The notes under the pieces: generated by a model
What the model was told of the DNA's origin: nothing
Seen by the model: the letters and a program-made list of their open reading frames with translations, nothing else
The model's database searches: none
Program-made: the position numbers and the translations under genes
Part shown: piece after piece, positions 4,973 through 56,610 of the stretch
Numbering within the stretch: the stretch's first letter is position 1
Layout of the letters: the number at the start of each line of letters is the position of its first letter
From: Zunongwangia pacifica
Lineage (GTDB): Bacteria; Bacteroidota; Bacteroidia; Flavobacteriales; Flavobacteriaceae
Length of the DNA stretch: 64,000 bases
Assembly: GCF_023499215.1 (NCBI RefSeq)
Contig: NZ_JAKHSK010000001.1
Span: 1-64,000 of the forward strand
Direction of reading: 5' to 3'

Positions 4973-6284
4973 ATGGCTTTTTAAGCGGGTAGATAATTCA
5001 GCTTTAATATTCTTTAGAATGGCTTTTGGATTATTAATTGCGCTTGAAGCTATTGGAGGGATTTTTACAGGCTGGATTAGGAGAACCCTGGTCGAACCAG
5101 ATTTTACCTTTAACTTTATAGGATTAGAGTTTTTACAACCCTTACCCGGTGATCTTATGTATTACTATTATGCGGTGATGGGAATTTTTGGTATCCTGGT
5201 AATGATAGGTTTTAAATATCGATTTTCGATGTTTTGCTATACCATTATGTGGGCATCGGTCTATTTAATGCAAAAATCGTCTTATAATAACCATTATTAC
5301 CTTTTAATGTTGCTTTGCATTATTATGACTTTCTTGCCGGCGCATAAAGCCTTGTCTTATGATGCATGGAAAAATAAAGCAATACGATCGATCTCGATGC
5401 CGCGTTGGGTATGGCTTTTTATAGTGGTGCAGCTATGGATTGTTTATACTTATGCTTCAGTAGCAAAATTATATCCAGACTGGTTAGATGGTACGGTTCC
5501 AGAATTGTTAATGCGAGGTAGGAGAGATTATTGGTTGGTAGGTGAATTTCTTCAGAAACCATGGATAAAGTGGGTGATCGCCTATTTTGGATTAATATTC
5601 GATTTATTAATTGTGCCTATGTTGTTGTGGCGACGAACACGGGTTCCATTTTTCCTTCTTGCGATATTTTTTCATCTATTTAATAGTTTTGTCTTTCATA
5701 TTGGGATATTTCCTTATTTGTCTTTGGCCTTTTGTGTTTTCTTTTTTCCTACAGAGAAAGTCAATAAATACTTGCTGCGAAATAAAAAAGAACATTATGA
5801 CGGGGACCAGGTAATAGTACCGCAAAACAGTGCAATCTTAAAACTTACCATTGTTTTATGGTTTGTGATCCAAATTTCTTTACCGCTAAGGCACTGGTTA
5901 ATTAAAGACAATGTACTTTGGACAGAGGAAGGTCACCGCTTAAGCTGGCGAATGATGCTAAGAACTAAAAGCGGACGTTCTACCTTTAAGGTGGTAGAGA
6001 AAGGAACAACAGATACTATTAGGGTTAATAAACATAAATATCTTTCCAGAAAACAACGAAGGGTAATAAGTACCAAACCCGATGTGATTTGGCAATTTGC
6101 GCAACGATTAAAACGTGAATATGAAAAGGAAGGAAAAGATATTCAGGTTTTTGTGGATGCAAAGGTTTCTGTTAATGGCAGGCCTTACGAAAAGTTAATC
6201 GACCCTAAAGTAGATATAGCAAACGAAGAATGGAATTATTTTGCCCATCATGATTGGATTTTGCCTTCTAATTTAGAGGAATAA
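4962..6284 (+). CDS. HTTM-domain membrane protein, vitamin K gamma-carboxylase-like
   Basis: A 440-residue integral membrane protein with about six to eight hydrophobic segments in the first 290 residues, then a soluble C-terminal part (about 290-440). It matches the HTTM family, whose best-known member is the vertebrate vitamin K-dependent gamma-glutamyl carboxylase. The segment YTYASVAKLYPDWLDG (about 163-177) lines up by eye with the region around the catalytic lysine of that enzyme, which would make K169 the counterpart. The bacterial substrate is unknown. It overlaps ribF by 11 bp and precedes serS by 67 bp. The family call is firm; the enzymatic role is only inferred. Confidence 0.8.
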   Translation: MWNRWLFKRVDNSALIFFRMAFGLLIALEAIGGIFTGWIRRTLVEPDFTFNFIGLEFLQPLPGDLMYYYYAVMGIFGILVMIGFKYRFSMFCYTIMWASVYLMQKSSYNNHYYLLMLLCIIMTFLPAHKALSYDAWKNKAIRSISMPRWVWLFIVVQLWIVYTYASVAKLYPDWLDGTVPELLMRGRRDYWLVGEFLQKPWIKWVIAYFGLIFDLLIVPMLLWRRTRVPFFLLAIFFHLFNSFVFHIGIFPYLSLAFCVFFFPTEKVNKYLLRNKKEHYDGDQVIVPQNSAILKLTIVLWFVIQISLPLRHWLIKDNVLWTEEGHRLSWRMMLRTKSGRSTFKVVEKGTTDTIRVNKHKYLSRKQRRVISTKPDVIWQFAQRLKREYEKEGKDIQVFVDAKVSVNGRPYEKLIDPKVDIANEEWNYFAHHDWILPSNLEE

Positions 6285-47562: not shown

Positions 47563-47588
47563 AAAAAGGCTGCGATTGGCAGCCTTTT
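47563..47588 (-). terminator. Terminator after the interrupted secreted-protein gene
   Basis: AAGGCTGC / GCAGCCTT type stem with loop GATT, with T's in the minus direction. It shares its core with the terminators at 34071 and 48751. Confidence 0.8.
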
Positions 47589-47611
47589 AAGATTATAGCT
47601 ATTTAAAACGT

Positions 47612-48667
47612 TTAGTTTTTAACCTTATAGGTTTTATCTCCAGATTTTACAATGTATAAACCGGGTTGTAAACTTTTTACCGTTTCCCATTCCTCTTGTT
47701 CTGAACTAACAGTTTTATCAATTACCTGGACACCTGAAAAGGTGTATACTTTCATGTTTTTTTGAGGAGCAGTGGTTTTCGCTGTCGCTGTCGAAAAAGA
47801 ACTTCTTGAAGGGTTAAAATATACTTTTACTGCTACGGTATTATTGCTAGTATTTTTGTCTTCTGCTTTTATTCTCGCAATAATGTACCAATACCCAGAT
47901 AAGCCATATTCAAAATCCGAGGCGAATAAAGTTTTGCTGTAATAGCCGTTACTGCTACCCGCGCAAATCGACGGAATTGATTTTTCTGGACTTAACTTAG
48001 CATCATCTGACGCATTAAATGTAGCATTGCTCGATCTATAAAATTCAATTTTCGTTGAACTAGAGCTAGCATCTCCTATATTATCTACGATAAAATTAAA
48101 TGATAGCATGCTGCTGGAATAGTTTAATCGGTGTGTTACAGTTAAGCTAGAAGAAGAAGCGTCACTTGTTACTCGTGATCCATTCGTATTGAATTTAAGA
48201 TCTGGCTGTGTATTGCCACTTGGTGGTGTAGTTTGTGGCGGTGTAGTTGTAGAGTTTTGGAAGTATATTGTTTTCGAAAGTCCGTCTCTTGTATGTTTTG
48301 CGACAAGGATAAACTTTGTTCCTGGTATTGTAAAAATTCTATCAGCATAGTTTGTTACCCAAGTTTTAAAAGTGTGATAGTCAGAAAAATTTAGAGGCTT
48401 GTCGCAATCACAATTACATCTTACGTATGCAATTCTATCTTGTTCAAAATCTGTGTTGGCATAAAGATTTAGTTCTAGTTTTTGATAAGTTCCTTTTATA
48501 TCAAATTGAAAATCAATTCTTTCATGATTGCTACCATTGGGATTGTATGTGTCGCCTTAATAAATTTCAGAATCATCGGCAATAATTTTAAGATTTTTTA
48601 TGTCGGGTTGCTGAGAAAACAAGAGACATTAGTAGAAGCCGAATAATAGTAGAGTAATTTTTTTCAT
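47612..48667 (-). pseudogene. Interrupted gene for a secreted CARDB-like protein with T9SS tail
   Basis: Reading the minus strand from an ATG at 48667 gives one 351-codon frame with a signal-like start (MKKITLLLFGFY), broken by TAA at codon 13 (48629-48631) and codon 37 (48557-48559). After codon 37 the frame is open to 47612. The intact 3' part encodes a CARDB-like adhesion domain (SFNFIVDNIGDASSSSTKIEFYRS; VAVKVYFNPS) and a T9SS-type tail (GLYIVKSGDKTYKVKN). A start at 48109 is possible but lacks a signal peptide. Loss of export makes decay likely; suppression of the stops cannot be excluded. Confidence 0.7.
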
Positions 48668-48750
48668 AAGGTTAATATTAAAGGTTAGATCTAAAATAAA
48701 TTAAAGCAATGTCATGTATGTTTTTTTAGAACATTAAGAGTATGTAAACT

Positions 48751-48781
48751 AAAAAAGGCTGCCAAAATTAATTGACAGCCT
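48751..48781 (-). terminator. Terminator after the duplicated lipoprotein gene
   Basis: On the minus strand AGGCTGTCAA pairs with TTGGCAGCCT (one G-T pair) across a 6-nt loop, then a T5-6 tract. Confidence 0.88.
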
Positions 48782-48806
48782 AGTATGGGTTGTGAGAATT
48801 TAAATC

Positions 48807-50756
48807 TTATAGTCTGGAATCGATCCAGGACCAAGTAGAAATTTCTACTTGTGTACCCGCTTTGTATTCAGCATTTAATTCTGCATTTACACCATCAATT
48901 TTAATATTTGATAATGGGCCGTTATCTTTCATATCTACATTGGTTTCATAACCTTCCAAATAAACATTGTTCATTATGGCGCCAGATTCTTTTTTAAACT
49001 GAAGAGCTGTTCCGCCGGTTGTCGATATCGCAGTAAAGTTTTCTAATTGAGGATTTTTATTTGTTCCGTCCGCTTCAACAGCTGTAGAGAATCCTTCAAT
49101 GGTGTGTTTAACATAAGTATTAGTAACTTTACCATTCCAGCCTTCTGTCCAGTCTACGGCATCATCTTCGTTGTTTTCAAGATAAAGGTTGGTTACCGAT
49201 ACACTTCCTCCAAAAAATTCAACTCCGTCGTCTGCTCCATTAATAACGGCAAGGTTTTCAACTACAGTTTTAGATCCTACAGCGTAAAAAGATACACCGT
49301 TATATTGCGAATCTGCGTTAATTTGAGCTCCTGTACCTAAGATTACAAGATTTTTTATACTTCCTGAATCATCTTCATCGTTAGTTCCTCCATAAATGAA
49401 ACCACCAACTTCAGCAGTTACATCTGTTCCAGATGTTGTAGTAGCTTTTCCGCAAATAGTTAATCCACCCCAGTCGCCAGGATTTTCGTTTTCAGAAGAC
49501 ATAACTACCGGTTTTTCTTCTGTTCCCTGAATGTCTATTTTGCCACCTTTAAGTATAGCGATATAAACGTCTGTTCCTCCGTTTCTAGCTAAAATTTTGG
49601 TTCCTGCAGGAATGGTTAAAGTGGCACCATCCTTTACAATGTAATTTGATCTTAACTGATATTCAACTGAGGCATCTAATGTTACGTCACTATCGATAGT
49701 TCCCTGAAGAATATTTGAAGCTACGCTACCTTTATTGTTAATCCAGTCAAACATATCTACATCTACGGTAGCTACGGCGTTGTAATTCTTTTCAGGATCT
49801 GCAGTTTCTCCATCTATTATGATGTTAGCTAGAGGGCCATTATCTTTCATGTCTATAGACGTATCGTATCCTATAAGCGATAATCCTGTTATTGTAGCAC
49901 CAGATTCTAATTTAAATTGTAATGCTGTACCTCCTGTAGTAGAAACTGCAGTGAAATTTATAAGCTTAGGATTGTTATTGGTTTTGTCCGCTTCAACAGC
50001 AGTAGAGAAACCTTCAATGGTATGAAGAACGTATGTATTGGTAACGGTACCATTCCAACCTTCAGTCCAGTCTACGGCATCATCTTCGTTATTTTCAAGA
50101 TAAAGATTGGTTATTGAAGCTGCACCACCAAAGAATTCTACACCATCATCAGCTCCATCTATAATAGCGATATTGCTCAATTTTGTTTCTGAACCAACAG
50201 CGTATAAAGTAAGTCCGTTATACTGAGATTTAGTATTTATTTGCGCCCCAGCACCTTCAATAACAAGATAATCTATAGAGCCAGAATTATCTGCGTTGTT
50301 TGTGCCTCCATAAATAAGACCACTTACTTCTGCAGTAACATCGGTGCCAGAGGTGGTAATTCCTTCTCCTAATAAAATAAGGCCACCCCAATCACCAGGA
50401 TTACTATTTTTTGATGTCATAATAACAGGTGCATCTTTGGTACCTTTTACATCAATTTTAGCTCCCTGTTGAATAACAATAAAAACCTCCTGTCCTTTCT
50501 CGGCGGTAATTTTTGTCCCTGCTGGGATGGTTAAAGTAGCACCAGCTTCAATACTCAAAACACCGGTTAGTTGGTAATCAATATCAGACTCTAAAGTCAT
50601 ATTTTCAGTGATCGATCCATTTAATTCGTCCTCAATTTGTGGAATTTCACCTCCTCCATTAGGATCATCAATGATATCGTCATCGTTACTACAGCTCGTC
50701 AGGAATAAGCCTGATAGCATAAGCATCGCAGTAAATTTTCTAAAATTTCTTTTCAT
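48807..50756 (-). CDS. Beta-helix-like lipoprotein with two 306-residue repeats
   Basis: 649 residues. Lipobox LTSC with Cys22, then an Asp/Asn/Gly-rich linker. Two tandem copies follow (about 47-350 and 352-649). Both contain a TLTIPAGTKI strand, NPGDWGGL, GADDGVEFFGG, NLYLENNEDDAVDWTEGWNG, HTIEGFSTAVEAD, TTGGTALQFK and DMKDNGPL. The evenly spaced short strands suggest a right-handed beta-helix, exposed on the cell surface. It is the probable partner lipoprotein of the TonB receptor, whose gene ends 37 bp upstream. Confidence 0.82.
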   Translation of the reverse strand: MKRNFRKFTAMLMLSGLFLTSCSNDDDIIDDPNGGGEIPQIEDELNGSITENMTLESDIDYQLTGVLSIEAGATLTIPAGTKITAEKGQEVFIVIQQGAKIDVKGTKDAPVIMTSKNSNPGDWGGLILLGEGITTSGTDVTAEVSGLIYGGTNNADNSGSIDYLVIEGAGAQINTKSQYNGLTLYAVGSETKLSNIAIIDGADDGVEFFGGAASITNLYLENNEDDAVDWTEGWNGTVTNTYVLHTIEGFSTAVEADKTNNNPKLINFTAVSTTGGTALQFKLESGATITGLSLIGYDTSIDMKDNGPLANIIIDGETADPEKNYNAVATVDVDMFDWINNKGSVASNILQGTIDSDVTLDASVEYQLRSNYIVKDGATLTIPAGTKILARNGGTDVYIAILKGGKIDIQGTEEKPVVMSSENENPGDWGGLTICGKATTTSGTDVTAEVGGFIYGGTNDEDDSGSIKNLVILGTGAQINADSQYNGVSFYAVGSKTVVENLAVINGADDGVEFFGGSVSVTNLYLENNEDDAVDWTEGWNGKVTNTYVKHTIEGFSTAVEADGTNKNPQLENFTAISTTGGTALQFKKESGAIMNNVYLEGYETNVDMKDNGPLSNIKIDGVNAELNAEYKAGTQVEISTWSWIDSRL

Positions 50757-50793
50757 AATTTGAGATTTAATTGTTTGTTAGTTAGGTTATAAT

Positions 50794-53583
50794 TTAAAAG
50801 TTATAATTAAGGCCAAGACTCAATATACTTCCTCTTGTGTAAGAGCGAACAACTTCTTCAGTCTCAATACTTGTAGTACTAGGTTTTATTTTTTGTGTTC
50901 TTTGTATTTCAGGATTTAATAAGTTCTTACCAATAATTCTAAAATTCCAGTGTTCTCCAATGCTTTGGTTAAGTACCGCATCTAGGGTTACAAATCCTTT
51001 TTCTATAATTGCTTCGTTATATTGTGTTTGGTATTCTTGTTGGTTGGCAGGAGTTCCTAGCGCATATATTTTATCTGAAGCATAACTAGCGGTAATATTA
51101 GCTAGTAAAGGGTTTTCTGAATCTGTACTGAAATTTACAGAGCCATTTAATATCCAATCTGATGCACCTTGTAATCCAGAATCTTTTAAATCTTTATATT
51201 TAAAGGTTTGGACTAATCCCCCTTGATCATTATATACATCTTTTAAATCTTGCGAATGCCACATTCTGGTTGCATTAAAATTAAAATTGAAGTTATAGGG
51301 AAGTTCTTCGGTAGCTTCGAAAAGATTAAACCTGCTTTCCAATTCAATACCATAAATATTGGCTTCATTACCAGAGTTAAAGTAAGAGAAAACACCTGAT
51401 GAACCTCTTGTTTGTACTTTGTTTATTGGGTCTTTGATATTTTTGTAAAATCCGGTTAATGAGATTAATTCATCATTTGATGGGAAAAACTCATATTTTA
51501 CGTCTAGATTGTAATTTTTAGAGGCTTCCAGGTTTTGGTTACCACGTGTTACCTGACCCGTTGGTGAAACATATTCAAAAGGAGCAATTTCTTTAAATTC
51601 TGGTAATGTAATTGTTTTGCTCCCTGCTATTCTTAGATTAGTTTTATCACTTAAACCATACTTTATATTAAAAGTTGGATAAATGTTATCGTTATTAATT
51701 TGAGAAGAACCTATTCTTCCAGGAATGTTACCAACATCATAAGTAACCTCTATTTGATCATTTTGGTATCTTGCTCCAATATTGAAATTGAATTTTCCTA
51801 TTTCATAATTGGCAGAAGCAAATCCTGAGGCTGAAGTTAGGTTTGCCTTGTAGCGATCTATTTGTAATTCATTGATCGTTAAATTTCCATTTTGGAAATT
51901 CCTTAGTATAAATATACTTGAAATATCATCTATTGATGTTGGGTTAAGAGTATTAGTAGACTTTTCTTCAACGCCTACAAATTGAGAGGCAAAATCCCGG
52001 TCTTTATTTCTATAGTTTCCTCCTACAGTGATACTTAATTTCCTTTCTTCTTCTGTGATTAAAGAAATTTTATCTTTTAAAAGGCCGCTAAATTCCTCAT
52101 CGTTGATGGCTTGCGCCGTTTTTCTTTGTTGAAAACCACCTGTAGTTCCTAATTGAACAAAAGAGCTATTAGGATCAAAGTTAACTTCATTACGAATACG
52201 GTTGGGTTCGTCGGCATCTACTATGTTTAATCCAGCTGCCCAATCAATAGCGTGTTTTTCCCCAATTTTATGTTCACCTATAAGTTGGTTAACCAAAAGT
52301 CTTGTTTGCTTTGTATTTTGATCTCTTATAAATTGAAACAAACCATCTTTAGGATTTGTTTCTTCAAAGATCACACCTTCTCCGTTTCTACCACCTTCGT
52401 AAACTTCATCCTTAACTTTGTTGATTAATAAGCTATTGAATTTAACAGTGTTATTTTCATTCATTTCGTAAATAATGTTTCCTAAGGCAGTTGTGTTTAC
52501 AGATTTAGAGAAAATCTCGGCATCTGTAATGGAATCATTAATGAAGTTTGATTGAAATTGTCTAAAAACACCTTGATTATGGCTGTATTTAGTAGATTGA
52601 GATCCTGTGAAAAATACCTCTAGTTTTTCTCCAATCTTGGTTCCTGCAACAATGCTGTATTGATTATCTATGGGAGCACTTTCTTTTTGCGGACTCCAGC
52701 TTTGTGAATATAGCGCCTGTTTTTTTGGTAAATCTTTTTTATAGAAACCTAATGTGATATCATCTTGATTAGGAGAAACCTTGAAATTATCATAGATACC
52801 ATTTTTAGTTACATTTGTATTAATCCCTATTTTAATACCTAAATTAAGTTCGTTTCTACCAGCAAGTTCACGCGTTGAAATATCGATATTACCAGAGGAT
52901 TGGTCTGCAGAAGTTTCTGAAGAATAGGTCTTACTAATACTTACATTTTGGATTACTCTGGTAGGAAATAATTCCAGATCAATATTTTTTCGCTCAACAT
53001 CATCTGATGGTACAGGTAGCCCATTCATTGTAGTGTATAAATAGCGATCACCTAAACCTCTTACAAAAACATCTCCTGAGGCCTCACTACTGGTAACACC
53101 TGAGATTTTTGTGGTAGCAGTCGCTACGTCTGAAACCCCCATTTTAGCTAATTGCTGGGCGCCGATACTTTCCTTAATTTCAATAGCGCCCTTTTGCTCC
53201 AACAATAATGCTACTTCACTATCCCTTCTGGATACTGTAGTAATCACTACTTCATCTAAAGTAGCTGCACTGGCGCCAAGACCTGTATTGATCTCGGTAA
53301 CTTTATCGGCAACAACTTTTACATTTGGTATTTCTAAAGTTTCGTATCCCACAAAACTAAAGACAACGGTATAGGTGCCTGGCTCAATTTTATCCAGTAC
53401 ATAAAGACCATCATAATCTGATGTTGTCCCTTTAGAAGTTCCTTTAATTGTTACGTTGGCAAACGGTAATGGTTCGCCGTTCATCTCGCGATCAGTAAGC
53501 TTTCCTGCGATAGAACCTGTTGTTTCTTGTGCATTTACTATAGTAGTAAGTAAAAATGCAATGAGTACTAAAAATTTATTCAT
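50794..53583 (-). CDS. TonB-dependent receptor with carboxypeptidase-like N-terminal domain
   Basis: 929 residues. Signal peptide (MNKFLVLIAFLLTTIVNAQ), then a carboxypeptidase-regulatory-like domain (about 24-105: GSIAGKLTDREMNGEPLPFANV, GTYTVVFSFVGYET), a DEVVITTVSRR TonB-box-like segment, a plug domain (about 125-250, VFVRGLGDRYLYTTMNGLPVPSDD) and a 22-strand barrel ending GSILSLGLNYNF. It imports an unknown ligand across the outer membrane. Encoded divergently from phoB with 173 bp between, and in one run with the lipoprotein. Confidence 0.92.
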   Translation of the reverse strand: MNKFLVLIAFLLTTIVNAQETTGSIAGKLTDREMNGEPLPFANVTIKGTSKGTTSDYDGLYVLDKIEPGTYTVVFSFVGYETLEIPNVKVVADKVTEINTGLGASAATLDEVVITTVSRRDSEVALLLEQKGAIEIKESIGAQQLAKMGVSDVATATTKISGVTSSEASGDVFVRGLGDRYLYTTMNGLPVPSDDVERKNIDLELFPTRVIQNVSISKTYSSETSADQSSGNIDISTRELAGRNELNLGIKIGINTNVTKNGIYDNFKVSPNQDDITLGFYKKDLPKKQALYSQSWSPQKESAPIDNQYSIVAGTKIGEKLEVFFTGSQSTKYSHNQGVFRQFQSNFINDSITDAEIFSKSVNTTALGNIIYEMNENNTVKFNSLLINKVKDEVYEGGRNGEGVIFEETNPKDGLFQFIRDQNTKQTRLLVNQLIGEHKIGEKHAIDWAAGLNIVDADEPNRIRNEVNFDPNSSFVQLGTTGGFQQRKTAQAINDEEFSGLLKDKISLITEEERKLSITVGGNYRNKDRDFASQFVGVEEKSTNTLNPTSIDDISSIFILRNFQNGNLTINELQIDRYKANLTSASGFASANYEIGKFNFNIGARYQNDQIEVTYDVGNIPGRIGSSQINNDNIYPTFNIKYGLSDKTNLRIAGSKTITLPEFKEIAPFEYVSPTGQVTRGNQNLEASKNYNLDVKYEFFPSNDELISLTGFYKNIKDPINKVQTRGSSGVFSYFNSGNEANIYGIELESRFNLFEATEELPYNFNFNFNATRMWHSQDLKDVYNDQGGLVQTFKYKDLKDSGLQGASDWILNGSVNFSTDSENPLLANITASYASDKIYALGTPANQQEYQTQYNEAIIEKGFVTLDAVLNQSIGEHWNFRIIGKNLLNPEIQRTQKIKPSTTSIETEEVVRSYTRGSILSLGLNYNF

Positions 53584-53618
53584 CCCTTTGTTTGATTCTT
53601 GTGTGCAAATTAAAGGGC

Positions 53619-53690
53619 GTTATGTAAAGCTTGTGTTAACCGCAAATTAACGCTTTGTCATTTTAGTGTTATGTAAAGGTTACTAAATAA
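53619..53690. promoter_or_regulatory. Candidate response-regulator sites: direct repeats with 11-bp period
   Basis: GTTATGTAAAG occurs at 53619-53629 and 53668-53678. Between them TTAAC occurs at 53636 and 53647, exactly 11 bp apart, the spacing of OmpR/PhoB half-sites. The copy at 53669 is followed 11 bp later by TTACT. PhoB binding is inferred from the neighbouring genes. Confidence 0.45.
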
Positions 53691-53699
53691 ATGCGTAAA

Positions 53700-53728
53700 T
53701 TGTAGGTTCAAATTAATAATTACATTTA
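53700..53728 (+). promoter_or_regulatory. Promoter for phoB-phoR
   Basis: TTG (53700-53702), 18-bp spacer, TACATTTA (53721-53728, one base off TAnnTTTG). It sits just downstream of the 11-bp repeats. Confidence 0.5.
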
Positions 53729-53756
53729 CCGCGTATTTGTTAAAATCTATACTAAA

Positions 53757-54440
53757 ATGAAGAAAAAAGACATCAGGATCCTTCTAGTAGATGACGAGCC
53801 AGATATCCTAGAGATCGTTGGATATAACCTTTCTGCAGAAGGGTATCAGGTAATTACTGCCGATAATGGCGCTGATGCGGTAAAGGTAGCTAAGAAAAAA
53901 TCACCTCATTTAATTATTCTAGACGTTATGATGCCGGGCATGGATGGTATAGAAGCCTGTGAGCAAATGCGAAAAATACCAGAATTAGATGATACTATTA
54001 TTACCTTTTTAACTGCTAGGGGTGAAGATTACTCGCAGATGGCAGGTTTTGATGCCGGTGCAGACGATTATATCACCAAGCCTATAAAACCAAAAGTTTT
54101 AATAAGTAAGGTGAAAGCACTACTTAGAAGGTTTAGGGACGAAGAAGCAACATCCAATATTGTAAAGGTAGGGGAGATTGTAATCAATAGAGATGAATAT
54201 AAAGTAGTAAAGAATAAAGAGGAGATGATTTTACCTCGTAAAGAATTTGAATTACTTTCACTATTGGCCTCTAAACCAGGAAAAGTATTTAAAAGAGAGG
54301 ATATCCTTGATAAAGTTTGGGGGAACGAAGTTGTTGTTGGAGGGCGTACTATAGATGTACATATTCGTAAATTAAGAGAAAAAATAGGTGACGACAGCTT
54401 TAAAACCGTAAAAGGAGTTGGTTATAAGTTTGTAGTTTAA
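53757..54440 (+). CDS. phoB: PhoB-like response regulator
   Basis: 227 residues. Receiver domain (about 5-120) with ILLVDDEPD acidic pair and phospho-acceptor D56 (IILDVMMPGMDG). The OmpR/PhoB winged-helix DNA-binding domain (about 130-227) has LLSLLASKPGKVFKREDILDKVW and IDVHIRKLREKIGDDSFKTVKGVGYKF. The phoR gene overlaps its stop by one base. Phosphate response is the usual role of this type in Bacteroidota, but the name rests on resemblance. Confidence 0.85.
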   Translation: MKKKDIRILLVDDEPDILEIVGYNLSAEGYQVITADNGADAVKVAKKKSPHLIILDVMMPGMDGIEACEQMRKIPELDDTIITFLTARGEDYSQMAGFDAGADDYITKPIKPKVLISKVKALLRRFRDEEATSNIVKVGEIVINRDEYKVVKNKEEMILPRKEFELLSLLASKPGKVFKREDILDKVWGNEVVVGGRTIDVHIRKLREKIGDDSFKTVKGVGYKFVV

Positions 54441-55525
54441 TGGCAAAAAAATTTAAGAAGTCCTACACGTTTGCAATAAAGACCTCTTTATATCTAACCT
54501 TATTTTTAAGCGGTCTGTGGACTGCTTTTTCTTATTTTTCAGGAAACTTTCACTGGTGGGCACTTTTGGGATTCGCATTGGTGTGCTACACCTTTTCATT
54601 TTTTACCACGCAATATCGGGTAGAGAACTTTATCTATAAAAGGATTAAGAAAATTTACGACGACGTATCTTTATTAGACTCTTCTACACTTAATCCTAAT
54701 CAGGTGACTACAGATATGGCTTCGTTAACCCGAGAGGTGGAGAAGTTTGCCGAAAATAAAAAGCTTGAAATAGAAACCCTTAAAGTGCGCGAGAATTACC
54801 GTAAAGAATTTATGGGGAATGTTTCACACGAGTTAAAAACACCATTGTTTACGGTGCAGGGATACATTTTAACTTTGTTAGATGGGGCGATGAAAGATAA
54901 AACCGTGCGTAAAAAGTATCTGCAACGAGCCAGTAAAGGAGTAGAGCGACTTATCTATATCGTTAAAGACCTGGATATGATCACCAAGTTAGAAACAGGG
55001 GATTTACATCTTTATACTGAAGATTTTGATATTGTTGAATTAATTCAAAATACTTTCGATCTATTAGAGATGAAAGCGGCTAAAAAGAATATAACCCTTA
55101 CGTTCGATATGGAGTATCAGGAAGCCATTTGGGTGAGAGCCGACCAGGAAAGAATTCAGCAGGTCATTACAAATTTGGTAGTCAATTCCATTAAATACGG
55201 AAAAGAAGGTGGTACAACAGAGATTAGTATCGAAAATTTAATTAAAAATAAAGTCATCGTTAGGGTAACCGATAATGGCGAAGGGATTGCGAAGGATAAT
55301 ATTCCACGTTTATTTGAACGTTTTTATCGTGTAGATAAAAGTGGATCCCGTAAAGAAGGTGGTTCTGGTTTAGGCTTGTCTATCGTAAAACATATTATCG
55401 AAGCTCATAGCGAAAAAATTTATGTAGAAAGTGTTTTTGGGGTAGGAAGCGAATTTTCATTCACACTCGAAAAGAGTAAAGAGATCCCTAAAAGGGTATT
55501 GGAAACTGAAACTACTGAAGCCTGA
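54440..55525 (+). CDS. phoR: PhoR-like sensor histidine kinase
   Basis: 361 residues. Two N-terminal transmembrane helices (about 14-34, 38-56) with only a very short periplasmic loop, so sensing is probably inside the membrane or by a partner. HisKA has the phosphorylated H130 (GNVSHELKTPLFTVQG), then an HATPase domain with VNSIKYGKEGG, DNGEGIAKDNIPRLFERFYR, GGSGLGLSIVKHIIEAH. Its 3' end overlaps the convergent glycosyltransferase gene by 69 bp. Confidence 0.88.
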   Translation: MAKKFKKSYTFAIKTSLYLTLFLSGLWTAFSYFSGNFHWWALLGFALVCYTFSFFTTQYRVENFIYKRIKKIYDDVSLLDSSTLNPNQVTTDMASLTREVEKFAENKKLEIETLKVRENYRKEFMGNVSHELKTPLFTVQGYILTLLDGAMKDKTVRKKYLQRASKGVERLIYIVKDLDMITKLETGDLHLYTEDFDIVELIQNTFDLLEMKAAKKNITLTFDMEYQEAIWVRADQERIQQVITNLVVNSIKYGKEGGTTEISIENLIKNKVIVRVTDNGEGIAKDNIPRLFERFYRVDKSGSRKEGGSGLGLSIVKHIIEAHSEKIYVESVFGVGSEFSFTLEKSKEIPKRVLETETTEA

Positions 55526-56515
55526 AAATTCATCTAGTTTTTCTAATTTCTCTAAAGAGAAGTCAGCTTGCTGACAAAATGGGGCTATACCCAGTTTTTC
55601 AAAACGTTCTGCCAGATATTCCTGTTCAAATTGTCCGGGAGTTGGTATAAAAAAAGCTTTTGCTTCAATTTTACAAAGATCCATAATTGTAGTGTAGCCC
55701 GATCGTGCGATAACGCATTTACAACTATTCAGGGCTTGTTGTAAAAAAGCACCGTAAAGATGATTCCTAATATTGATATTAGGGTTTTTCAAGCTGATTT
55801 CTTCCGAAGAAAAAACACCCCTTATAAATAAAATCTTGTGTTCGGTATCTTTAAAAGCATCAAGGAGACGCTTTTCTAAAAAACTTCGCTGAGGTTCGGG
55901 TCCAGAAAGGATAATTAAATAATCATAAATTTTTGGCCAGGATCTTCTTTCAATACGGCTTAAAGGACCAATATATTTTAGGGCTGGATTGTTAGTTTTT
56001 AAATGTCCAAGGATGCCACTTAGGTTTTTACTGCCTGGTAGATCCGGAATCCAACATTCATCAAACTTTTCAATATATTTTTGCTGAATTTTACTGCTAA
56101 AATAGGTGGTGTTTCCTGAAAGGACATTGAGCTGATGTGTTATAAAAACACATTTTAATCGCTTATTTCTTACGCCCCAGCGATTATCTGAAATTATTCC
56201 TAAAATTTGATAATCCCGTATAATTCCCTGGGTTGCTTTTTTTTCAGCCTTAATTACTTTTAGAATACGTGGGCTGTCAAAAAGCAATTTCCATTTTAAT
56301 TTTTTGGGATCTTCGGTATATCTTATATTATAAGAAGGTAATTCCAGGCAAATAATATGTGGGAACTCTTTTTTTAAAAGCCGTAATGCATTACCATCTG
56401 AAGCTAAAACAGGTTCGTAATCATTTTTTAGCAGCGCTTTGATAATAGGAATGCATCTGGTAGCATGACCAAGGCCCCAATTTAAAGCCGCAACTAAAAT
56501 TCGCTTTTTTTGCAT
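55457..56515 (-). CDS. MurG-like family 28 glycosyltransferase
   Basis: 352 residues from the ATG at 56515 (MQKKRILVAALNWGLGHATR); an ATG at 56560 adds 15 unconserved residues. The GHATR glycine loop, DGNALRLLKKEFPHIICLELPSYNIRY, and the C-terminal CKCVIARSGYTTIMDLCKIEAKAFFIPTPGQFEQEYLAE block (donor binding, S-G-Y/G-T) mark a GT-B enzyme of the GT28 type. The acceptor is unknown; envelope glycolipid synthesis is reasonable. Its stop lies inside phoR. Confidence 0.82.
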   Translation of the reverse strand: MQKKRILVAALNWGLGHATRCIPIIKALLKNDYEPVLASDGNALRLLKKEFPHIICLELPSYNIRYTEDPKKLKWKLLFDSPRILKVIKAEKKATQGIIRDYQILGIISDNRWGVRNKRLKCVFITHQLNVLSGNTTYFSSKIQQKYIEKFDECWIPDLPGSKNLSGILGHLKTNNPALKYIGPLSRIERRSWPKIYDYLIILSGPEPQRSFLEKRLLDAFKDTEHKILFIRGVFSSEEISLKNPNINIRNHLYGAFLQQALNSCKCVIARSGYTTIMDLCKIEAKAFFIPTPGQFEQEYLAERFEKLGIAPFCQQADFSLEKLEKLDEFSGFSSFSFQYPFRDLFTLFECE

Positions 56516-56610
56516 TTTACAAATATAGATTCGTAAAGACTTCAGCCGGTTTTTATGCATTAAAAAAACATCACGAAATTTTTAAATCTAAATTTGAATT
56601 TTCTAAAAGC

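Follow-up and report, generated by a model that had tools for sequence, protein, structure and literature searches.

A probable PUSIV-type phosphate-starvation locus in Zunongwangia pacifica with an apparently exchangeable receptor-lipoprotein cassette

The locus studied here lies in a window of 64,000 nucleotides, positions 1 to 64,000 of the forward strand of contig NZ_JAKHSK010000001.1 of Zunongwangia pacifica (Flavobacteriaceae; assembly GCF_023499215.1). It comprises genes for a PhoB-like regulator and a PhoR-like kinase, a divergent gene for a TonB-dependent receptor, and a gene for a lipoprotein with two predicted beta-helices. With a probability of roughly 75%, we consider it the Zunongwangia version of a PUSIV-type phosphate-starvation locus, with PhoBR-like control, an import pair of receptor and lipoprotein, and an exchangeable cassette. 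The promoter array, the phosphate-transport neighbors away from phoBR, and the block exchange are new here, and the block exchange is the main new feature. Genome comparison showed that the receptor plug and barrel together with the lipoprotein behave as one cassette, apparently exchanged between species as a block, and that the promoter and the N-terminal part of the receptor are conserved above it.

Apparent exchange of the receptor plug and barrel together with the lipoprotein

The window was compared with five Zunongwangia congeners, including Z. atlantica and Z. mangrovi. With congener G085, the DNA was 82% identical from 4.2 kb upstream through base 449 of the receptor gene; beyond this base it was dissimilar, except for 58 bp, up to base 5995, after which it was again 79-80% identical. 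Across the five congeners, PhoB was 98-99% and receptor residues 1-150 were 89-95% identical to the window, but residues 151-929 were only 59, 55, 32, 32, and 32% identical. The lipoprotein paralleled the barrel, with 56-63% identity per unit in the two congeners with an A-type barrel and 41-49% for the single units of the three B types. Against the two A-type congeners there was no clean break; the DNA could be aligned through much of the block, and identity dropped from 87-100% near the start to 52-63% at bases 650-875. The promoter was 95-100% conserved, and the DNA between the divergent genes was 96-100% identical in three congeners, compared with 83-92% in the adjacent phoB coding DNA. 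The window barrel was 67% identical to that of another genus (G096; PhoB, 88%), closer than to any congener. Two further genomes of that genus, G164 and G153, had barrels 26-27% and PhoB proteins 85-87% identical to the window. In the same genus, the receptor frames beside phoB at L217 (G163) and L214 (G165) are only 308 and 400 amino acids long and are possibly broken or cut off.

The main distance comparison used pairwise distances across 21 phoBR-linked genomes. Barrel distances were correlated with those of the lipoprotein (r = 0.91; rank correlation, 0.66) and N-terminus distances with those of PhoB (r = 0.71), and the correlation between barrel and PhoB was 0.03 (Mantel P = 0.34). In sliding windows along the receptor, residues 1-125 tracked PhoB (0.61-0.77), residues 101-150 were intermediate, and the part from about residue 126 tracked the lipoprotein (0.72-0.89), with PhoB at most 0.09. 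The split between N terminus and barrel recurred within type A alone (9 genomes) and type B alone (12 genomes). The vertical controls PhoR, TyrS, and the glycosyltransferase gave 0.83, 0.75, and 0.66 against PhoB; PhoR and the glycosyltransferase gave -0.02 and -0.10 against the barrel. A LuxE-like neighbor (c5) reached only 0.38 against PhoB. At 18 loci unlinked to phoBR, with dgt as the flank, the correlation was 0.72 between N terminus and flank and 0.95 between barrel and lipoprotein. A weak tie between barrel and flank remained at these loci (0.17; P = 0.027), which counts against the exchange, and OprO/P (0.37; P = 0.055; 11 genomes) and PitA (0.42; P = 0.022; 13 genomes), taken as additional vertical controls, were only moderately correlated with dgt.

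In a quick tree of PhoB plus the receptor N terminus (36 rows), Zunongwangia formed one clade, with a value of 99 in the Shimodaira-Hasegawa-like approximate likelihood ratio test (SH-aLRT), and so did the genus of G096 (fork support, 80). For the barrel, approximately unbiased (AU) tests rejected as clades the six Zunongwangia rows (log-likelihood 352 lower; p-AU, 3e-32), the three A-type Zunongwangia rows (125 lower; 6e-7), the window with Z. atlantica (128 lower; 2e-6), and the 11 rows of the G096 genus (246 lower; 6e-8); the identities were already known when the second and third groups were picked, and a long-branch warning applies to the barrel tree.

One unrelated TonB receptor (G000:C17:37963-40611; L229, L234) served as a control. 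It matched at E ≤ 1e-100 in 15 of the 21 genomes and is not a clean single-copy orthologue, with a second match in two genomes. Its N terminus was correlated with PhoB (0.70), and its barrel was correlated neither with PhoB (-0.08) nor with its own N terminus (0.09); the pattern was unchanged without outlier genomes. Since an unrelated receptor has the same split, block exchange is not peculiar to the phosphate locus. Judging from this one control, block exchange may be common among TonB receptors of Flavobacteriaceae. Concerted evolution of the N-terminal extensions within a genome was also considered and is unlikely, because the extensions of the two receptors are 34% identical in the window genome, compared with 43-93% identity of the phosphate receptor's extension to those of five other genomes. 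Literature listings on receptor block exchange and on phosphate TonB units yielded no description of such exchange, which is not proof of absence.

The N-terminal extension of the receptor faces TonB. For TonB receptors of Flavobacteriaceae, and possibly as a general rule, the balance tips slightly towards a fixed socket, in which promoter, signal peptide, and N-terminal extension would stay with the chromosome, and the plug, the barrel, and here the lipoprotein would be swapped by horizontal exchange. If this is true, the outer face of the phosphate importer (its ligand range, or its sensitivity to phages or bacteriocins) could be changed without touching regulation or TonB coupling. What drives exchange of the outer part may be its ligand range or the evasion of phages or bacteriocins. 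The exchange also provides a natural experiment, with alleles that share a promoter but differ in barrel and lipoprotein, and a model for receptor diversification.

Promoter array

PhoB and PhoP boxes are 11-bp direct repeats. Between the divergent receptor and phoB genes, TAAC-type half-sites repeat every 11 bp. This array fits such boxes, as well as the motif TTTAACA determined for Riemerella PhoP by DNA affinity purification sequencing (PMC9603813), and is best described as Pho-box-like. An array score was fixed on 41 receptor promoters, 36 of which scored at least 14 and all of which scored at least 10, and was then applied to the remaining 67 receptors as a held-out set. Here, 47 of the 67 promoters reached at least 14; in a post hoc split by identity to the window receptor, this score was reached by 46 of 50 at 34% identity or more and by 1 of 17 below. 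The mean best score in the held-out set was 14.2 at 11-bp spacing versus 4.8-5.9 at 8, 9, 10, 12, 13, and 14 bp. Among 374 other promoters of the neighborhoods, 33 scored at least 10 and 6 at least 14; in five of these six, the downstream gene is a short CarbopepD-like gene that stands alone next to the receptor, and in the sixth it is a lipoprotein gene. The array was present at receptor promoters whether or not phoBR adjoined. In 19 genomes with unlinked receptors, the phoB promoters had a phased motif on the opposite strand (mean score, 11.2, versus 5.5-8.0 at other spacings). In the window genome (5.1 Mb), the five-site pattern, which was derived from promoters including that of the window, had a single match with 0 mismatches, the window promoter. 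The phased array makes the regulon concretely testable.

The stand-alone CarbopepD-like genes lie just upstream of the receptor at L034, L035, L036, L055, and L056. They encode secreted-looking proteins of 118-129 amino acids that resemble, by reading, only the receptor's N-terminal CarbopepD extension, and they have their own 11-bp-phased TAAC arrays, with scores of 16.5-18.9.

Several results limit the support for a Pho regulon marked by this array. Other array-like matches in the window genome (3 mismatches) numbered 8, as did those of the reversed-pattern control, and a further scan gave 9 matches versus 13 in the control. Extra Pho-box genes in this genome were rejected as candidates, with matches beyond the receptor promoter and its overlapping register at the reversed-pattern level; no phosphate gene was recognized, by reading, downstream of them. 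None of the 17 phoX-family promoters evaluated reached a score of 14 (best, 10.8; 9 of 26 loci lacked a recognizable start codon and were dropped), and one of the six pstS promoters evaluated did (6 of 12 loci dropped for the same reason); both comparisons are weak controls that speak neither for nor against the box, as many retained loci also have uncertain starts. Among the phoB promoters of the 19 unlinked genomes, 5 reached at least 14.

Locus layout and identity of the regulators

The features of the locus are listed in Table 1. The gene calls agree with the first-pass annotation, which placed the receptor gene and phoB-phoR divergently across 173 bp and the lipoprotein gene 37 bp after the receptor; phoB and phoR overlap by one base.

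Table 1. Features of the Zunongwangia pacifica locus, in window coordinates
Feature	Coordinates	Strand	Remarks
Block replaced relative to congener G085	47588-53134	-	Plug and barrel, lipoprotein, CARDB remnant; DNA similarity limited to 58 bp
Decayed gene, CARDB with type IX secretion system (T9SS) tail	47612-48667	-	Two early in-frame stops; position of Fjoh_0549 (pf07705)
Lipoprotein gene	48807-50756	-	Lipobox Cys22; two predicted beta-helix units, residues ~42-345 and 346-649
TonB-dependent receptor, 929 amino acids	50794-53583	-	CarbopepD_reg_2, Plug, and OMP_b-brl_3 (Pfam)
Conserved 5' part of receptor gene	53134-53583	-	Signal peptide and N-terminal CarbopepD extension, residues 1-150; distances follow PhoB
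Divergent promoter region common to receptor and phoB	53584-53756	.	Intergenic; conserved in congeners
Pho-box-like array	53635-53682	-	Five half-sites of the TAAC type at 11-bp spacing; -99 to -52 relative to receptor start
PhoB-like response regulator, OmpR/PhoB type	53757-54440	+	Response_reg and Trans_reg_C (Pfam)
PhoR-like sensor histidine kinase	54440-55525	+	HisKA and HATPase_c (Pfam); position of Fjoh_0543
PF04101 glycosyltransferase, convergent with phoR	55457-56560	-	Position and Pfam family of Fjoh_0541; PF04101 E, 1.3e-9

The names phoB and phoR are based on best matches and gene order and are qualified by scores under the curated cut-offs, which weigh against them. The best NCBIfam match of the regulator was TIGR02154 PhoB at 219 bits (equivalog cut-off, 296.2), and NF053854 scored 208 bits (cut-off, 270). 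The kinase matched NF046044 PnpS best (248; cut-off, 400), followed by PhoR TIGR02966 (235; cut-off, 334), and scored 149.5 bits against NF053855 (cut-off, 500). Because the regulator scores below these cut-offs, it is named only PhoB-like.

No SusD family was found by Pfam in the 7 proteins scanned, nearest neighbors on both sides included, out of 15 open reading frames (ORFs) of at least 100 amino acids at 44-60 kb, and no SusD-like protein was recognized in the remaining 8, judged by reading only. The receptor scored 53 bits against the SusC model TIGR04056, under its cut-off of 368. The first-pass annotation had the lipoprotein taking the place of SusD; the absence of SusD is in line with these results, and the replacement role is not supported by them. 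No phosphatase or phosphodiesterase genes were seen among the neighboring ORFs. The window has no gene between the glycosyltransferase and phoR, so that the OprP position of the F. johnsoniae cluster is empty. The CARDB match (PF07705) of the decayed gene is weak (E, 0.028), and the remnant was not found in the three congeners compared. Intact CARDB and OprP genes are treated here as putative variable accessories of the cluster.

Gene neighborhoods in Flavobacteriaceae

In a sample of 149 Flavobacteriaceae genomes from 148 genera, the receptor was found at E ≤ 1e-60 in 108. The best PhoB homologue lay within 3 kb of it in 31 of the 108, and in 26 the two were divergent, with 174-284 bp between the matches. 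This arrangement is more than chance. The remaining 77 receptors were more than 3 kb from the best PhoB homologue (36 shared its contig at a great distance, and 41 lay on a different one), so the proposed PhoBR linkage holds for one part of the sample only. The link to phosphate stands despite these unlinked receptors, because the promoter array is present there anyway.

The neighborhoods of 41 receptor loci (the window and extracted stretches; 22 phoBR-linked, 19 unlinked) were compared. The lipoprotein was the next gene after the receptor in 40 of them, the exception being G139, where the contig ends inside the lipoprotein match. At the 19 unlinked loci, a dgt-like HD gene was present within two ORFs upstream in 18, a PHO4/PitA transporter in 13 (together with a PhoU match that scored under the cut-off), an OprO/P porin in 11, and a pst operon in 1 (G006; PstS by PF12849, other pst genes by reading); the Pfam identity of the PHO4/PitA and OprO/P neighbors comes from one representative each. 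At least one of PHO4/PitA, OprO/P, or pst occurred at 15 of 19 unlinked loci versus 2 of 22 linked loci, and the OprO/P and PHO4 clusters were missing from 20 of the 22 linked loci within the stretch taken.

PstS (PF12849, E ≤ 1e-20) was found in 11 of the 149 genomes and lay within 6 kb of the receptor in 4 of these 11. PhoX (PF05787, E ≤ 1e-30) was found in 25 of the 149. The window genome has one PHO4/PitA-type gene, away from the locus; PstS was not found in it, and other transporter families were not searched for. Since 138 of 149 genomes had no PstS match, a route driven by TonB might supply an important step of high affinity in the outer-membrane phosphorus uptake of Bacteroidota.

Structure and possible role of the lipoprotein

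The lipoprotein had been described from its sequence as a duplicated beta-helix, which proved correct: its two units are 67% identical, and both are predicted to form a right-handed beta-helix. AlphaFold2, run with an alignment of 18 locus-derived sequences, gave two such helices with a mean predicted local distance difference test score of 87 and a predicted template modeling score of 0.53, because of which the angle between the halves is unsure. No Pfam family was matched. Among sequences of solved structures, the lipoprotein had one insignificant match (E, 0.058) and the receptor none at 1e-5; in PHROGs, the lipoprotein had one weak match of unknown function (E, 0.0068) and the receptor none. 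By structure, the best Z scores of the two halves against solved beta-helices were 21 and 20, and Foldseek and VIA-align recovered only the generic right-handed beta-helix.

Across the receptor loci, 39 of 40 lipoproteins were readable by the motif parser (G134 was not), with one unit in 16, two in 20, and three in 3. Units inside one B-type lipoprotein were up to 88-91% alike (G001, G124), and the duplication therefore probably occurred more than once. Seven acidic residues (D162, D163, E166, D184, D185, D188, and D216 in unit numbering) were invariant in 61 of 61 parsed units from 37 of 40 proteins, as were many glycines, W82, and Y108. This conservation suggests a site for a metal or a ligand. 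Acidic residues, aromatic residues, and glycines make up most of the positions that all units have in common and are not an obvious phosphate-binding set, which weighs against the reading as a phosphate import pair.

Rather than a SusD-like cap, the lipoprotein could be an enzyme or an enzyme helper, comparable to Caulobacter ElpS or to beta-helix enzymes that act on glycans, and the receptor would then import the product. The invariant acidic residues favor such a role, and the structural matches of each half, at Z scores of about 18-20, include polysaccharide lyases, hydrolases, and epimerases. The FI-FIII lipoproteins of F. johnsoniae are reported to be 31-36% identical to ElpS over 50-54% coverage (PMC8115612). 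Overexpressed ElpS increases phosphatase activity outside the cell, but no such activity was seen in ElpS that had been refolded or immunoprecipitated (PMC2996285). The fold also occurs in nonenzymes (NosD, antigen 43), no catalytic set was identified in the lipoprotein, and one to three units per protein suit binding at least as well. We regard the enzymatic role as a tentative possibility.

Origin of the barrel mismatch and proposed function

The mismatch between barrel and PhoB could also arise without horizontal exchange, if old allelic types had been kept across genera by balancing selection or if barrels had diverged very fast. Zunongwangia has two barrel types, each in 3 of its 6 genomes, and the genus of G096 likewise has A-type barrels next to others, as an old shared polymorphism could give. 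This origin is nevertheless unlikely, as the window barrel is closer to that of G096 than to those of its own A-type congeners, the three A-type Zunongwangia barrels were rejected as one clade, and the barrel of Z. atlantica falls together with that of Gramella (SH-aLRT, 100). In addition, the non-A barrels of Zunongwangia and of the G096 genus are different lineages, and fast divergence alone cannot shift rows between genera. Horizontal exchange of the cassette is the preferred explanation.

The first-pass annotation proposed a regulated outer-membrane import unit without SusD, perhaps for a phosphorus-containing compound. The prediction of such a unit with a link to phosphate is well supported by the induction seen in F. 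johnsoniae, the Pho-box-like array, and the phosphate-transport neighbors. Beta-helix proteins often act on glycans and SusC-like receptors usually import them, as would suit a pair that serves carbon uptake and lies next to phoBR incidentally. This is highly improbable and already disfavored, given the position-independent array, the phosphate-transport neighbors, and the induction of three such receptors in F. johnsoniae by depletion of inorganic phosphate only, not by N or Fe limitation (PMC8115612).

For the phosphate import unit, we propose that phosphate shortage would lead the PhoR-like kinase to activate the PhoB-like regulator, which would bind the observed TAAC array and switch on the receptor-lipoprotein pair and phoB, by analogy with F. 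johnsoniae, where induction follows phosphate depletion. The lipoprotein, presumably located on the cell surface with its two beta-helices on a lipid anchor, would, together with the receptor, capture a phosphorus source for import through the receptor at the expense of TonB energy. Because no PstS was found in the genome, phosphate would probably reach the cytoplasm via the single PHO4/PitA-type transporter.

Comparison with known systems

Recombination diversifies TonB receptors together with partner genes in hypervariable siderophore receptors, for example, the pyoverdine receptors. At the window, the receptor is partnered by a lipoprotein within a putative phosphate regulon, and the breakpoint separates the N-terminal extension from the plug.

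An import unit of this kind is already described in Flavobacterium and is not new. In F. johnsoniae, Lidbury et al. (2020) describe a "PhoBR operon," part of PUSIV, as Fjoh_0541-0549, encoding a glycosyltransferase (Fjoh_0541, pf04101), OprP (0542), PhoR (0543), PhoB (0544), a receptor (0545; pf07715, pf13715, pf14905), an FII lipoprotein (0546; IPR011050), and a second lipoprotein (0549; pf07705) (PMC8115612). Under phosphate depletion, log2 changes were +8.0 for Fjoh_0545, +9.9 for Fjoh_0546, +7.6 for Fjoh_0549, +5.4 for the glycosyltransferase, and +3.1 for PhoB; those of PhoR and OprP were not significant (PMC8115612). Both loci have the order glycosyltransferase, phoR, phoB, divergent receptor, beta-helix lipoprotein, and CARDB gene, the receptors have the same three Pfam domains, and the published F. 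johnsoniae list has no SusD. The window differs in lacking OprP between the glycosyltransferase and phoR and in its broken CARDB gene. Its lipoprotein has two units, and the likeness to Fjoh_0546 is one of position and predicted fold. The likeness to F. johnsoniae as a whole is one of published gene order and Pfam domains.

The SusCD-like PusCD complexes of Flavobacterium (PUSI and PUSII) are likewise low-phosphate outer-membrane import units (PMC8115612). They differ in their SusD-like cap and in the phosphatases or phosphodiesterases encoded next to them; neither feature was seen among the neighboring ORFs of the window locus. In Caulobacter crescentus, the phosphate-starvation surface lipoprotein ElpS (CC0170) also lies beside a TonB receptor, CC0171, a co-occurrence remarked on by the ElpS authors (PMC2996285), and the Caulobacter PhoB regulon includes TonB receptors (PMC11208175). 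Unlike the window lipoprotein, ElpS adjoins a type II secretion system and is released from the surface, and CC0171 is reported to be constitutive (PMC2996285); the likeness of the two lipoproteins is one of description.

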